A stretch of DNA of 36,311 nt from IMG/VR virus record IMGVR_UViG_3300030451_004680, positions 1 through 36,311 of that record; one strand, given 5' to 3'. This DNA is from a virus. Positions 12,486 to 25,593 of this stretch are shown one piece after another (the first letter of the stretch is position 1; the number at the start of each line of letters is the position of its first letter). The notes beneath the pieces were generated by a model, which was not told the origin of the DNA, searched no databases, and saw only the letters and a program-made list of their open reading frames with translations. The translations under genes were made by a program, and so were the position numbers.

Positions 12486-14183
12486 CTAAAATACCCCTGG
12501 TGCATTAGCTTTCCTTGCACTATCTATCATACTTCCGCTAATTCTTCCACCTGAAAGAAGGTCATTAGCAAATCGTAATGCTGCACCACGCCCTAATCTT
12601 TTTTCTATTTCTATAAAAGTATCAGCTAATTCTACTGCGCGATCATCCATAACTTGTTTTGATGCTGCTGGTGACATTTCGTATTGTTTATAATCTGCTG
12701 ATGTAGGAACAAGCAAACCGCCAGTGCCTTTCGCACGTTGCATTTCTGCTTTATCAACAAATAATAGATTTGCTGGTACACCGCCACCGCCTTGATCTAA
12801 ATTATATGATGCTCCAATTTTATCAATGTAAGTATCATAAGTGCTATGAATATCTGGCGTTGTTGGCATCAACCCTTTGTCATAATCAGGAAAAAAACCA
12901 CGATAACCAGCAGTTAAAAAATCCCTACCGATTAAATCTGGATTAGCTAATGCTACTCTAATTTGACCTATATTTGGCACACCAGCTTTCTGCAACGCAT
13001 CCCTGTCTAAACCTTTAATAAATGCTGCACGTTCTGACCCTGTCGCAATATTAGCAATATATTCTGCCATATAATTTGGGTCTGCTATAGATTTAAAATC
13101 TGCAAACGGATAAACTGTATAGCTTTTAGTTTTAGGATTACCTTTTGCAGTAAGTACTTCGTTACCATCTTTATCTACAACTTTGTCACTTTTTGATACG
13201 CCAATTTTTCTAATATGTGCATCAATGTCAGGAATTTTGTCACGCAATATTGGATTGCTGTTACTTGTCATAGCTGCCCTAAATGCTTCGCCGACAGCCT
13301 CTCCAGTGTGTTTAGCAAAATCTCCAGATTTATCGCCCATTTGCAAAAATGTAAAAAATGCATCATCACTGCTTGCAGCTTCTCTTAATTGTGATGACAT
13401 TGCCGATAAAGCAGATGCATATCCATAAATGTCCATAAATTCTGCACCAGCTTGCACATCTACTGGATTAGCTAAACGTAAATCTCCTATCTGCGTAACT
13501 GTTTTTCTTGCTGTTGGATCACCTACTAAACCCATAATGGTTTTTCCAGCTAAATCATTAAAGGTTAATGGCTCTGGCGGTGTCATTTCGTTTGACAATA
13601 ACCCTCTACTGTAATGGTCATCTATAATACTTGAGCGTTGTGCTTTCATATTAGAAAAGCCAGAACCTTTGCCCTCATTTGCTTTGCCCATAACATCTAA
13701 CGCAGACGGTTCATCGCCCATATTTCTACGCAAGTCAGAGCCGATCATTTCATATGCGCCACCTAGACCACTACCCATTACTGGTACTTCACCTGGTTGC
13801 GTAAATCTTTCTACTAAATCGTCTGTTATTGCTTTTTGTGTAGGTGAACCGCCTAACAATCCTTCCATTACACCCTGGACAGGCGTTAGGTAGCCTCTAG
13901 CAGCCAGGGCAGCAGGTGTAAGAGCTAATGCCATCTCTAAACCCATGTCTAATGCTGCACGTTTTCTAGCTTCTGCTGTTTGCTCTGGGTCAAACACAAC
14001 ACGACTTGCCGCCATGCTGTCTGACATACCTTCTAGTGGATTTGCTTCTCCTATAAATTCTGCTGCTGGACGTAAATTAGGCGGTGTTATGTACTCAAAT
14101 AAACCGCCAATTGCTTCATCTAACGCTCTGCGTCTCTCTTGACCTGCTTCTCTGCTAAAAAAATGAAACAAATTGTGCGACAT
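12486..14183 (-). CDS. Large virion-associated protein, probable internal/ejected protein
   Basis: A 565-residue protein. I chose ATG 14183 (MSHNLFHFFSREAG), which forms TAATG with the upstream stop, over the TTG at 14189. The N-terminal 120 residues are Ala/Leu-rich amphipathic helix (MGLEMALALTPAALAARGYL), and the middle and end are mixed alpha/beta (FLQMGDKSGDFAKHTGEAVG, TAGYRGFFPDYDKGLMP). Similar large proteins are encoded between terminase and adaptor in marine podovirus-like phages without an assigned role. Size, soluble character and late-operon position suggest an internal virion or ejected protein. No peptidase or transglycosylase motif was evident. Confidence 0.7.
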   Translation of the reverse strand: MSHNLFHFFSREAGQERRRALDEAIGGLFEYITPPNLRPAAEFIGEANPLEGMSDSMAASRVVFDPEQTAEARKRAALDMGLEMALALTPAALAARGYLTPVQGVMEGLLGGSPTQKAITDDLVERFTQPGEVPVMGSGLGGAYEMIGSDLRRNMGDEPSALDVMGKANEGKGSGFSNMKAQRSSIIDDHYSRGLLSNEMTPPEPLTFNDLAGKTIMGLVGDPTARKTVTQIGDLRLANPVDVQAGAEFMDIYGYASALSAMSSQLREAASSDDAFFTFLQMGDKSGDFAKHTGEAVGEAFRAAMTSNSNPILRDKIPDIDAHIRKIGVSKSDKVVDKDGNEVLTAKGNPKTKSYTVYPFADFKSIADPNYMAEYIANIATGSERAAFIKGLDRDALQKAGVPNIGQIRVALANPDLIGRDFLTAGYRGFFPDYDKGLMPTTPDIHSTYDTYIDKIGASYNLDQGGGGVPANLLFVDKAEMQRAKGTGGLLVPTSADYKQYEMSPAASKQVMDDRAVELADTFIEIEKRLGRGAALRFANDLLSGGRISGSMIDSARKANAPGVF

Positions 14184-14449
14184 TACCACTTAACCCTATT
14201 TGCCCAATATGCTGCCGACATTTTACCTTTAGCTATATTCTTTGCATGTCTTGCCTTAAATGACTTTGCACGTTTTGTCATTTTTTTATCGCCAGTTTTG
14301 CCCTGCTGACCAAATCGTATAGTTTTTACTTTGTCACCTTCTTTTGCTACAACAATATGTGACTTAGTTTTGTGATTAGGTGTACGTTTAGGTTTGTTGT
14401 ATCCCTCTACACCTGCACGTTTTAATCTAGGGTCTTTTTCTTTTGGCAT
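14183..14449 (-). CDS. Basic Lys/Arg-rich protein, 88 residues
   Basis: MPKEKDPRLKRAGVEGYNKP opens an 88-residue, strongly basic protein. Its second half carries HIVVAKEGDKVKTIRFGQQG and then TKRAKSFKARHAKNIAKGKM and SAAYWANRVKW. This RFGQQG / K-x-RQ-x-x-FKARH-x-x-NI-x-KGK-x-SAAYWANRVKW pattern is a recognisable DUF-type domain in phages and algal viruses, often a conserved small virion or DNA-associated protein. It is coupled to the next gene by TAATG. Charge suggests nucleic-acid contact, perhaps inside the head. The biochemical role is unknown. Confidence 0.75.
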   Translation of the reverse strand: MPKEKDPRLKRAGVEGYNKPKRTPNHKTKSHIVVAKEGDKVKTIRFGQQGKTGDKKMTKRAKSFKARHAKNIAKGKMSAAYWANRVKW

Positions 14450-14456
14450 TTAAATA

Positions 14457-14948
14457 TCAAGGAAACATTTTTTCGTAATAAGTATCATAATTCATATCTC
14501 TTGGTATTCTGCCATATAATTGCTCATTAAGATACTTATCATAAAAATTTGGATCAAACGGTCTAGCCATACCGCTATCGTTTGTTCTTTCACCAAGTAT
14601 TTTTGCTGATGTGCCAAATCCAGATGTTTGTGTTGGTGGGAATAAAGCATTTGCTATATCACTTAACAATCCACCACCCTGAAAAACACCGCCACTAGCA
14701 TTTGCGCCACCACGATCAAACATATCTTTCATGTTTTTATATGCACCAAAATCAATGTCCATACCGCCTAATAATCCACCACGTTTTGGAAAGTTAGATT
14801 TTTCCATACGTTCCATGTAACGATTAGCAGCCATCTCACCACGACTTTTTCCTATCGTTTTAGCAGTGCGTTTGTAATAATCTTTGTCACGGTCTTTTAA
14901 ACCGAACCCCATCTGCAAGTCGTTAGCAATGTCACTAAGCAAACCCAT
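14457..14948 (-). CDS. 163-residue Gly/Met/Tyr-rich protein of unknown function
   Basis: It begins MGLLSDIANDLQMGFGLKDR and reuses that opening internally (GGLLSDIANALFPP), suggesting an internal duplication. The central part is Gly/Asn-rich (GGLLGGMDIDFGAYKNMKDM, DRGGANASGGVFQGG). The C-terminal part is Tyr-rich (FYDKYLNEQLYGRIPRD, YDTYYEKMF). The start is fixed by a TAATG overlap with the upstream 16-residue gene. The family is not recognised. Neighbours are small basic genes and a large virion protein, so a minor virion or assembly role is likely. Confidence 0.65.
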   Translation of the reverse strand: MGLLSDIANDLQMGFGLKDRDKDYYKRTAKTIGKSRGEMAANRYMERMEKSNFPKRGGLLGGMDIDFGAYKNMKDMFDRGGANASGGVFQGGGLLSDIANALFPPTQTSGFGTSAKILGERTNDSGMARPFDPNFYDKYLNEQLYGRIPRDMNYDTYYEKMFP

Positions 14949-14998
14949 TACTTTTTCTTGCCGCCTTTTTTCTTACCGCCTTTGTGATACCCTGGCAT
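14948..14998 (-). CDS. 16-residue Lys/Gly micro-peptide (MPGYHKGGKKKGGKKK)
   Basis: A 17-codon frame, TAATG-coupled at both ends (upstream to the 58-residue gene, downstream to the 163-residue gene). Its sequence closely parallels the 20-residue peptide encoded about 240 bases upstream: both start MPGY and continue as Gly/Lys blocks ending GGKKK. Two independent copies of the pattern, each tightly coupled, argue for translation. The peptide would be a polycation able to bind DNA or acidic surfaces. That is inference. Confidence 0.55.
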   Translation of the reverse strand: MPGYHKGGKKKGGKKK

Positions 14999-15174
14999 TA
15001 CTTTTTTCTCCTTGCTTTTTTCTTTGCAGCCTCACTTAACTCAGAAAAATGATATAATCTTTTGCTAGTTTTTCCATGAGTTTTACCAGAATGAAGTTGT
15101 CCATTTGGCATTTTGTGCATACCGCCTGAGTGTTTTGTACCATCTTTAAAATAATGAGCTACACCTTTAACCAT
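14998..15174 (-). CDS. 58-residue basic His/Lys-rich protein
   Basis: MVKGVAHYFKDGTKHSGGMH begins a 58-residue product with KMPNGQLHSGKTHGKTSKRL and a Lys/Arg-rich end (AAKKKARRKK). The motif H-x-FKDGT-x-x-x-GG-x-HKMPNG-x-x-HSGKTH is known from small phage proteins whose length varies. It is TAATG-coupled to both neighbours. It carries a strongly positive C-terminus like the rest of this gene chain. The role is unknown; it is a candidate DNA-binding or capsid-interior peptide. Confidence 0.65.
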   Translation of the reverse strand: MVKGVAHYFKDGTKHSGGMHKMPNGQLHSGKTHGKTSKRLYHFSELSEAAKKKARRKK

Positions 15175-15236
15175 TATTTCTTTTTACCGCCCTTTTTCTT
15201 AGAGCCTTTCTTTTTTCCCATTCCGTATCCAGGCAT
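15174..15236 (-). CDS. 20-residue Lys/Gly micro-peptide
   Basis: The peptide is MPGYGMGKKKGSKKKGGKKK: 10 of 20 residues are Lys, and there is no acid residue. It starts one base after the stop of the 86-residue basic gene and ends in a TAATG overlap with the 58-residue gene. It is a near-parallel of the 16-residue micro-gene two genes downstream. Its size lies below normal gene-calling limits. Evidence is the coupling plus the duplicate. Confidence 0.55.
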   Translation of the reverse strand: MPGYGMGKKKGSKKKGGKKK

Positions 15237-15237
15237 T

Positions 15238-15498
15238 TTAAGCACTCCTTTTCTTTGCTGCTTTTGCTTTTTTCCATAAATCGGCATCAGCTTTTCTCGC
15301 ACCGCCTTTGCCACTAATAAAACTATTTACTCTGCCCATGCTCCACGCTGCCATTGGCACATTGCGCGACCCAGAACTCAAATACGCAGCATCACCGCGT
15401 TTTTTAACTTGTCGCAGAATACCAATAGGTATACCACTTTCTTTTGCTTTCTTTGCTAAAGCACTTCCACTACTTCTTTTTTTTGGCTTGGGCGGCAC
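15238..15498 (-). CDS. DUF5872-like small basic protein
   Basis: An 86-residue protein. After a Lys-rich start (MPPKPKKRSSGSALAKKAKE) it has SGIPIGILRQVKKRGDAAYL, then MAAWSMGRVNSFISGKGGAR and KADADLWKKAKAAKKRSA. The G-I-x-x-GIL-R-x-V-x-x-RG-x-A-A-x...W-x-x-x-RV-x-SFI-x-G...KAD-x-DLW pattern matches the DUF5872-type family found in phages, giant viruses and some bacteria, whose function is unknown. It overlaps the end of the upstream basic gene by 29 bases. Net charge and company suggest a DNA-packaging or capsid-interior role. Confidence 0.7.
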   Translation of the reverse strand: MPPKPKKRSSGSALAKKAKESGIPIGILRQVKKRGDAAYLSSGSRNVPMAAWSMGRVNSFISGKGGARKADADLWKKAKAAKKRSA

Positions 15499-15661
15499 GA
15501 CTTTTACTCACTTTCTTAACATCTATTGGCAATCCAAGTTTATATTTTCTTTTAGTTTCTAAAATTTCTTTTTCTTTCTTTGAAGGGTTTTTAGAACCTG
15601 ATAAATATTTTTTTGGAACACCTTTTTTTGTTTTAGCAACTTTTTTAAATTTTCTAGCCAT
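15470..15661 (-). CDS. 63-residue Lys-rich protein after terminase
   Basis: MARKFKKVAKTKKGVPKKYL opens a 63-residue product ending KKVSKSRAAQAKKKK; about a third is Lys. I chose this ATG, 16 bases beyond the terminase stop, rather than an upstream in-frame ATG that would overlap the terminase gene by ~150 bases. The segment KKYLSGSKNPSKKEKEILET resembles small phage proteins of the 'KKYLSG' type with DUF status. It is the first of the chain of small basic genes. No domain allows a functional name. Confidence 0.65.
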   Translation of the reverse strand: MARKFKKVAKTKKGVPKKYLSGSKNPSKKEKEILETKRKYKLGLPIDVKKVSKSRAAQAKKKK

Positions 15662-15677
15662 ACCTATACTTAACACA

Positions 15678-16937
15678 TTAAACAATTCCACGCAAATTTC
15701 TTTTAATAGGTTCGCCCCATTCCTGGTTTTCTTTCCGTCCAACTGACAAGTATCTAAAGCTATCGGCTGCATGTGACGTCCAATCATGCAAGGGTCTACC
15801 GCGCCAGGTTTTGTTTTTTTCGTCAAATTCTCTGCGATATTGTCTTAATGCTTCTATACCGCGCCCACAGTTTTCTTCGTCAAACCAACAACGATTTAAC
15901 ATTGACCTGGCAGATTGTATGCCATCATCAATACTTAACTTTGGCGCAATGCTGATATTGTAAATGCCAAGTGCATCTAATGTTTCTAATCTGCTGCGTC
16001 CAGTGCCTAGTTCTTTAACTTGCACATCATGAGGTAATATATGTTCTTTGTAATGATAGCCTTTTTCTGCCAAGACTTTTGCATAATGATCTAAACCTAC
16101 ACCTGACATTTCATAGAAATCTATAATGCGTATTTCTTGCCCGACAAATTGTGCAAACCAGAGAGATGTACTATCGCCTATACCTAAATCCCAGGACACT
16201 GTTACACCTACACCTGGGTCATATGGCACAACAGTTATACGATCCTCTTGCGTTGCTGTTTTCATCTCCATCGCGTAATATGCGCCCTGGATTGCTGCTT
16301 CAAAACTACATTCAAACTCTTGCTCATAGCGATCTTCGCCCATTGCCGCTTTAGCTTCTCTTAATTCTTCGGTATCAAGAATATCTGTTTCTGATGCACG
16401 ATACATTTTGCACCACCAATCTTTGTGGCTTTTTGCATATTCGTACATTTCCCAAAATTCGTTTTTGCCTTTGGGCGTTCCTATGATAGTTATCTTACCT
16501 TTACGATCTACTGTAGCAGGTCTAATAACCGTAGGATAGGCTGATGCAGGGAAGTCAGCAAATTCATCAATACATACATGGTCAAAAAATAATCCACGAA
16601 TAGCATTATAATTGTCTCCACCAAATAATCTAAATCTAGCTCCGTTTGGAAAGTCTATTCTTAATTCACTATGGTTGACCTTTATATGCGGTATATCCCT
16701 AGTGTATTCTAACGCATAATCCCAGGCTACTGCTTTTGCTTGTGATAGATATGGCGCAATATACGCTACCCTGACATTCGGCATGTCTATATCAAAACAA
16801 GATTTAATTAAATCATTAACAGCAGCAACAGTCTTACCAAAACGTCTGTGCGCCACCAGGACAGCAAATCGTTCTTTTCTGTTGTGAAACTCTACAGCCT
16901 GTTTTCTTGGCTTGTAGTTTATTTCTATTGTTTCCAT
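15678..16937 (-). CDS. terL: Terminase large subunit (packaging ATPase and nuclease)
   Basis: A 419-residue protein that pumps DNA into the prohead and cuts it. The ATPase half shows Walker A HRRFGKT (residues 30-36), Walker B HVCIDE with catalytic Glu125, and the coupling motif IIGTPKG (151-157). The nuclease half shows the RNase-H-like acidic residues Asp250 (SWDLGIGDS), Asp304 (LPHDVQVKE) and Asp392 (HDWTSHAADSFRYL). It is compact for the family (usual 420-550) but complete. Its start overlaps the small-subunit gene by 13 bases. Confidence 0.95.
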   Translation of the reverse strand: METIEINYKPRKQAVEFHNRKERFAVLVAHRRFGKTVAAVNDLIKSCFDIDMPNVRVAYIAPYLSQAKAVAWDYALEYTRDIPHIKVNHSELRIDFPNGARFRLFGGDNYNAIRGLFFDHVCIDEFADFPASAYPTVIRPATVDRKGKITIIGTPKGKNEFWEMYEYAKSHKDWWCKMYRASETDILDTEELREAKAAMGEDRYEQEFECSFEAAIQGAYYAMEMKTATQEDRITVVPYDPGVGVTVSWDLGIGDSTSLWFAQFVGQEIRIIDFYEMSGVGLDHYAKVLAEKGYHYKEHILPHDVQVKELGTGRSRLETLDALGIYNISIAPKLSIDDGIQSARSMLNRCWFDEENCGRGIEALRQYRREFDEKNKTWRGRPLHDWTSHAADSFRYLSVGRKENQEWGEPIKRNLRGIV

Positions 16938-24780: not shown

Positions 24781-25335
24781 CTAAGAGGCGCTGGATTTTT
24801 CTATAATTTCTAGCGCCTTTTCCGTTGTTTGTTCATTACGATTTGTCCAGCCCCGAATAAACTTTTCCTGACCTAGACTGTCATAATATTTTTGACGTTG
24901 ATCCCTAAAATTTAAAACAACTTGCTCTGGCTTCATATCATGTGCAGCAGCAATTGTCTTTTTACCTATCAAACCATCATCCGTTGCAGAAACTGCACGT
25001 TGTAGTAATTTTACAGCAGGGCGATTACCTGCATTATAAGCCATGTCCGTAAGTGCTACATCAATACCATGCGGTAACAAATCTGCTTTTACTTGATCCC
25101 AATACCATTCTTTTGCAAACGGCATTACATCTGCTTTAGTAAGTTTTTTCATTACTTCTATTGGCGCAGGTTTGCCAGTGTATTTTGCCCAATTGTACGC
25201 AGTAACGCCCCACATTGTAGAGCCTCTGTTACCATGACCATCACCTTGATTATTTCCGTTGTCATCTTGGTCATCAGTGAAGCCACCTTCGTGGGCAATA
25301 CACATATCAAAAAAAACTTCAAAATTTTCTTTCAT
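24781..25335 (-). CDS. Endolysin, GH108 muramidase with C-terminal peptidoglycan-binding domain
   Basis: A 184-residue protein. The GH108 signature FDMCIAHEGGFTDD places the catalytic Glu at residue 16 (HEGG), followed by GNRGSTMWGVTAYNW. Residues ~60-130 hold WYWDQVKADLLPHGIDVALT and NAGNRPAVKLLQRAV. Residues ~115-170 are the PG_binding_3 domain (DDGLIGKKTIAAA). It cuts the glycan backbone of murein. It has no signal peptide, so it depends on the holin. It is the last gene of the late operon. Confidence 0.9.
   Translation of the reverse strand: MKENFEVFFDMCIAHEGGFTDDQDDNGNNQGDGHGNRGSTMWGVTAYNWAKYTGKPAPIEVMKKLTKADVMPFAKEWYWDQVKADLLPHGIDVALTDMAYNAGNRPAVKLLQRAVSATDDGLIGKKTIAAAHDMKPEQVVLNFRDQRQKYYDSLGQEKFIRGWTNRNEQTTEKALEIIEKSSAS
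24786..24821 (+). terminator. Rightward terminator inside the lysin 3' end
   Basis: AGGCGCT (24786-24792) and AGCGCCT (24812-24818) form a 7-base GC-rich stem, extendable by weak pairs, with a 19-base loop and TTTT after it. It would end the rightward early transcript five bases past its last gene while lying entirely inside the coding region of the lysin on the other strand. Confidence 0.55.
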
Positions 25336-25593
25336 TTATTGTTCCACTTCTTTTGTTCCACAGAGACGTTCATAAACCATATCGCTTGTATATGCTTCTG
25401 CCCATTTATTTTCTGTAAAAGTACAGAACGCCCATAGGTCATCTACGTCCTGGTCTATAAGACGTATAAGTTCATCTTGCGCTGATACAGTCTGTTTCAG
25501 GTGTTCCAGGTCATGCACTAGCCCACTTATATACCAGACCAATGCAACTAACTGAACGACCATTGCAAATGCTAAACCAACATTGACTTTCAT
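25336..25593 (-). CDS. Single-span membrane protein of the lysis cassette (spanin-like candidate)
   Basis: An 85-residue protein. Residues ~5-25 (VGLAFAMVVQLVALVWYIS) form an N-terminal membrane span, followed by a charged coiled-coil-like region (LVHDLEHLKQTVSAQDELIR). Two Cys occur in the C-terminal part (LWAFCTFTENK, ERLCGTKEVEQ). N-in anchor plus periplasmic coil, placed between holin and lysin, resembles an inner-membrane spanin, but no partner lipoprotein was found. It is ATGA-coupled to the holin. Confidence 0.55.
   Translation of the reverse strand: MKVNVGLAFAMVVQLVALVWYISGLVHDLEHLKQTVSAQDELIRLIDQDVDDLWAFCTFTENKWAEAYTSDMVYERLCGTKEVEQ

Follow-up and report, generated by a model that had tools for sequence, protein, structure and literature searches.

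The region downstream of terL

The DNA analysed here, referred to as the window, is a stretch of 36,311 bases whose terminase large subunit (terL), SU10-type portal, SU10-type major capsid protein (MCP) and tail tubular protein A indicate a podovirus-like marine phage. No isolate close to the window at the DNA level was found; by tblastn to 1762 phage records, its terL product is 45-48% identical to terminases of cultured Pelagibacter and Methylophilales phages, with 48% to Venkman and 45-46% to the HTVC010P-group pelagiphages. The genes p63, p86, micro20, p58, micro16, p163, p88 and p567 come after terL in this order on the minus strand (Table 1).

Table 1. Features of the terL-proximal region (positions in the window)
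Feature	Positions	Strand	Description	Basis
terL	15678..16937	-	Large terminase subunit, used as upstream anchor	tblastn to 1762 phage records
p63	15470..15661	-	Small Lys-rich protein	phrog_38321, E 7e-9
p86	15238..15498	-	Small basic protein, GTG start	phrog_28338, E 4e-22; Pfam DUF5824 above its cut-off
micro20	15174..15236	-	MPGYGMGKKKGSKKKGGKKK	Ends in TAATG; family conservation
p58	14998..15174	-	His/Gly-repeat protein, basic C-terminus	TAATG on both sides; homologs
micro16	14948..14998	-	MPGYHKGGKKKGGKKK	TAATG on both sides
p163	14457..14948	-	Gene behind micro16 and coupled to it	TAATG start, no Shine-Dalgarno nearby
p88	14183..14449	-	Small basic protein, frequent among marine phages	phrog_7595, E 6e-36

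The preliminary description of this region had reported a chain of basic products of 63, 86, 20, 58 and 16 residues right after the terminase, and five minus-strand ORFs of exactly these lengths are indeed found there. All five products are basic, Lys, Arg and acidic residues numbering 22, 3 and 4 in p63, 15, 7 and 4 in p86, and 12, 3 and 3 in p58. Three consecutive TAATG junctions, also as described, link micro20 to p58 (15174), p58 to micro16 (14998) and micro16 to p163 (14948), so that TAATG is found at every micro-gene end except the start of micro20. Since TAATG is the ordinary style of this genome at some junctions (5 of 22), such a junction alone is not remarkable. The five small products are not one group: p63, p86 and p58 each represent a protein family of their own, which leaves the 16- and 20-mers as the only members of the micro-protein family considered below. 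Besides, when both strands of the whole 36 kb were searched for short ORFs with an oligo-Lys tail, micro20 and micro16 were the only matches. The further statement that standard gene callers would miss three of the genes holds for these two, which lie below the usual limits, but not for p58, as p58-type ORFs are annotated in the isolates CRP-902 and CRP-207.

The PHROG and Pfam families of p63, p86 and p88 (phrog_38321, phrog_28338/DUF5824 and phrog_7595) are all without annotated function. By inspection, p63-like ORFs lie beside micro-genes in MED4-184 and HTVC026P. p86, which overlaps p63 by 29 nt, has 329 relatives in IMG/VR, shares its GTG start with the close ones and is predicted to be all-helical (pLDDT 78); a fold search with this model gave no significant match. 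The p58 alignment comprises 14 homologs with 22 invariant columns, those of CRP-902 and CRP-207 being from Roseobacter phages, and its structure model (pLDDT 72, pTM 0.49) was too weak for searching. A search of solved structures with p58, p63, p86 and p88 yielded no significant match. p88 is present in 48 records of phage isolates, cultured Roseobacter and cyanobacterial phages among them, with up to 84% identity, and displays a very weak similarity only to the KOW-type ribosomal protein L24. Among relatives, p58, p63, p86 and p88 are reshuffled around the micro-gene, while p163 homologs are found downstream of it. A Gly-rich and then hydrophobic motif, DxGGxxxxGGxxxGGGLLSxLxNxL, is common to p163 and to the otherwise different downstream proteins of relatives, and might be the signature of a virion protein that is internal or membrane-active.

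A family of Lys-tailed micro-proteins

The family was defined by a length of 12-29 residues, a Tyr within the first 10 residues and at least 5 Lys in the last 10, and both micro16 and micro20 fall within this definition. It comprises 60 distinct peptides from phages of 31-58% GC with unrelated terminases. With a filter that required Tyr or His together with a Lys tail, and that did not require the absence of Arg or acidic residues, all 60 peptides have a Tyr among their first ten residues, the ratio of Lys to Arg is 552:15 and acidic residues account for 2 of 1237. The head varies around the constant Tyr (MPGY, MGYG, MYGK, MPKY, MPYH), and the tail is nearly Lys-only. In the terL-anchored set, Lys and Arg number 212 and 3, compared to 236 and 248 in the large ORFs of the window, and Lys is retained even in phages of 55-58% GC, which indicates that positive charge alone is not the selected trait.

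Six micro-peptides of 20-29 residues had no PHROG match at E up to 1, and the MPGY pattern gave 0 matches in bacterial and archaeal genomes, hence no pointer to a host. No named description of the Lys-tailed family was found in the literature searched; large-scale catalogues of small phage genes, of the kind of Fremin et al. 2022 as cited in PMC11323111, may already include such ORFs among their anonymous families. The family is widespread in marine phages and unannotated, and the micro-genes thereby exemplify a gene class lying under the 30-codon annotation limit.

The two micro-genes of the window had been regarded as near-duplicates. They are near-repeats, but not sister duplicates: micro20 is nearest to the micro-genes of the IMG/VR loci L004 and L011, and micro16, whose peptide is encoded in identical version by 6 different DNA sequences, to those of L001 and L010. 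A tandem duplication was therefore rejected. In relatives, the corresponding units occur separately, as p63-p86-micro20 in L011 and as p58-micro in L001, and we infer that the pair most plausibly arose when a p58-micro unit was inserted at the TAATG boundary, that is, by cassette mosaicism.

Evidence for translation and selection

The preliminary description had proposed that related genomes be searched for conserved MPGY-GGKKK frames and that their dN/dS be estimated. Relatives of terL were fetched from IMG/VR, and each was read downstream of its terL: a Lys-tailed ORF of 12-23 residues is kept in 44 of the 49 close relatives with enough DNA, a count that includes the window and the 23-residue variant of L025. 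The loss among relatives that the preliminary description had named as counter-evidence is thus not what these loci show. In the five others (L015 and L028-L031) it is not recognisable, indicating that the micro-gene is dispensable or replaceable. L028-L030 carry instead a protein of 49 residues (MPLIQGHTQKSISENIRRLIKEGK...), a type that is also found beside the micro-gene in MED4-184.

Selection at the protein level is equally apparent. For 27 distinct terL-anchored sequences, pairwise counts without a tree gave a pS of 0.69, a pN of 0.15 and a ratio of 0.22, the pN being somewhat lowered since the set was picked by Lys/Gly content and start residues, a bias of which the tests of the next paragraph are free. 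A first pooled ratio of 0.076 was set aside, as it included pattern-selected sequences. On the same pairs, terL shows a pS of 0.68, a pN of 0.15 and a ratio of 0.22, compared to a pS of 0.64 and a pN of 0.16 for the micro-gene, while shifting the reading frame of the micro-gene by one or two bases raises pN/pS to 2.3 and 1.3, respectively. The micro-gene thus evolves like an ordinary protein gene whose silent sites are under no added constraint.

In the same line, a frame-blind pattern, with MPGY at one end, GKKK-TAATG at the other and 6-36 free bases of any length in between, matched 53 IMG/VR sequences (43 new and ten loci already read), and all 53 are in frame. Copies without annotation are carried by the cultured phages MED4-184, KBS-S-2A and S-H1, the last two of which, both Synechococcus phages, encode the identical 22-mer MPKYTGPKKPQKPMGKKGGKKK by genes with ten base differences, all ten being third-position and synonymous. 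In S-H1 (L255), the unannotated micro-gene (25393-25461) is overlapped by an annotated antisense ORF (25252-25425), which is probably spurious. Finally, in 98 distinct DNA sequences, AAAAAAAAA encodes 1 of 280 KKK blocks, whereas shuffling the Lys codons within each sequence predicts 29; the longest A run averages 6.0 bases, compared to 7.2 after shuffling. Such avoidance of 9-A runs would be anticipated if a translated frame is to be protected from slippage.

The micro-genes are very short and their purine-rich DNA tends to keep frames open, so that they might be taken for chance ORFs rather than genes. The in-frame pattern matches, the pN/pS values, the presence of only two matches in the window, the synonymous differences and the codon test jointly exclude this, leaving it a negligible probability, and from these sequence comparisons it is near certain that the micro-genes are real coding genes.

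Genomic neighbourhood across phages

In several unrelated lineages, the micro-gene has terL, portal, head morphogenesis, scaffold and MCP genes as neighbours. It also follows a different terL, of 468 residues and matching other terminase families, in L129, L135 and L163, and lies directly upstream of an SU10-type portal gene in L142 and L170 and before another portal-like region in L143. In cyanosiphoviruses and in a lineage of 55-58% GC, it is located between the head morphogenesis and scaffold/MCP genes. HTVC026P has, after its endolysin gene and away from head genes, a Lys-rich 27-mer of mixed Lys/Arg content that falls outside the strict tail definition and is counted as related by position and style only. 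Since the Lys-rich ORFs of HTVC026P follow the endolysin, the late region is the safest general placement. Larger proteins bearing the tail, which could have hinted at a partner, were also looked for, and none was seen: every KGGKKKGGKKK-stop match was a short ORF.

Translational coupling

Among 124 distinct contexts, the stop codon of the micro-gene overlaps the next start in 98 (79%), by one base in 85 and by four bases in 13. Among the overlapping ORFs behind the micro-gene, 97 have 25 residues or more, and 90 of these are devoid of AGGA, GGAG or GAGG in the usual place, and the micro-gene has such a motif of its own in 71 of the 124 contexts. Reinitiation on the gene behind the micro-gene would be the natural reading of this arrangement. 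A Shine-Dalgarno mimic within the GGNGG segment of the micro-gene was considered and discarded, as Gly codons are not biased to GGA (39 of 223) and about 12 nt separate the segment from the start.

The micro-gene could then be a cis-acting coupler, in which translation of a short A/G-rich ORF ended by TAATG is what matters for reinitiation and the peptide is a by-product. This would account for the frequent overlap with genes usually lacking a Shine-Dalgarno sequence, as well as for the free variation of the downstream gene (p163, portal, p58, p63-type or a 56-mer). However, a leader peptide or coupler should exhibit constraint on its nucleotides with an immaterial peptide, whereas here selection acts on the amino acids, which are conserved, and synonymous sites diverge as in terL. 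In addition, coupling calls for neither the MPGY/Tyr head nor the preference for Lys over Arg, the choice of Gly codons shows no tuning to GGAGG, and in several lineages (19 of 124 contexts) no downstream start lies within 15 nt. A role limited to coupling is consequently considered improbable.

Possible functions and closest known systems

The best reading, which we hold tentatively and at slightly less than an even chance, is that of a free-standing micro-protein that binds DNA and acts in head assembly or packaging, and whose translation at the same time supplies the late gene behind it. The peptide would be made in quantity, its Lys tail would bind DNA and its Tyr head would dock on a head component, be it the capsid, the portal or the terminase, so as to neutralise charge locally or to organise the DNA while it is packaged, in the manner of microvirus gpJ. 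Ribosomes would be handed on to the next late gene through the TAATG overlap, thereby tying the level of that gene to that of the micro-protein. The position of the HTVC026P 27-mer and the five relatives with the same terL but no recognisable micro-gene speak against this reading.

A protamine-like condensation of the whole genome by many packaged free micro-proteins could also be envisaged in the light of the extreme Lys content, the near absence of acidic residues and the basic nature of the neighbours p63, p58, p86 and p88. Nevertheless, by simple arithmetic, neutralising 10% of the about 72,600 phosphates would take some 900 copies per virion at 7-9 Lys each, which makes a local or capsid-tethered action likelier, and no tailed-phage precedent was found in the literature searched; bulk condensation is thus regarded as very unlikely. 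A trans-acting peptide with another target, such as RNA, the ribosome, a host factor or, as a chaperone, the co-expressed head proteins, is a more serious possibility, albeit still an unlikely one. The constraint at the protein level and a placement that varies within the late region speak for it, but the head and packaging neighbourhood recurs in unrelated lineages, and phage genes directed against host targets are usually located in early regions.

Tailed phages are usually thought to balance the charge of their packaged DNA by metal ions and polyamines, and not by a dedicated nucleoprotein. Eukaryotic DNA viruses have protamine-like core proteins, such as adenovirus mu and baculovirus P6.9, which are usually Arg-rich; the likeness of the predicted micro-proteins to them is one of composition. 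Small, highly basic proteins are described for the packaged dsDNA of eukaryotic DNA viruses in PMC6163548. Closer in gene arrangement is gene J of phiX174, annotated as "DNA condensation, core protein", whose 37-residue product gpJ is described as the protein that binds DNA within the capsid asymmetric unit (PMC5310724). This tiny basic gene of 38 codons is flanked by a morphogenesis gene and the coat gene, its start overlapping the stop of gene D as TAATG, and the micro-genes are likewise small, basic and linked by stop/start overlaps within morphogenesis genes. Their products differ from gpJ, as read directly from phiX174, in architecture: gpJ combines a basic part of 6 Lys and 6 Arg with an aromatic part at its C-terminus, whereas the micro-proteins are nearly Lys-only and bear their Tyr at the N-terminus. 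Moreover, the virus of gpJ is tailless and has ssDNA. The likeness of the predicted micro-proteins to gpJ is hence one in kind only, with no homology claimed. That many marine dsDNA phages possess a tailed-phage counterpart of gpJ, namely an oligo-Lys nucleoprotein of 12-29 residues that is DNA-bound, Tyr-tethered and coupled to portal or head genes, is a possibility that we consider rather doubtful. If true, such a conserved, near-Lys-only micro-protein among head genes would make the assumption of charge balance by ions and polyamines testable. Routine trypsin proteomics would miss it, as nearly all residues of the tail are sites of trypsin cleavage, and a test is feasible since cultured phages and their hosts exist (S-H1, KBS-S-2A, MED4-184).

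Other small genes near the micro-gene

Further small ORFs were noticed in these regions. In many relatives, an acidic protein of 111 residues (MLPFVQPTDAYGQISDNFLPETDYVDARV...) is encoded between terL and the micro-gene cassette, 38-374 nt past the terL stop in L006, L007, L019 and L045. In HTVC026P (L123), three unannotated ORFs of 30, 27 and 36 residues joined by TAATG fill an annotation gap at 2032-2317. Finally, a second conserved micro-gene of 31-34 residues, M..GKYSSAxSFKPCKGCPTPNKCAMAGKCLAK, adjoins the Lys-tailed one. It encodes 31 residues right behind the latter in L107 and L114, and is found about 490-600 or 238-343 nt past the terL stop in L002, L018, L033 and L047; the CxxC...C...C pattern of its predicted product could bind zinc.
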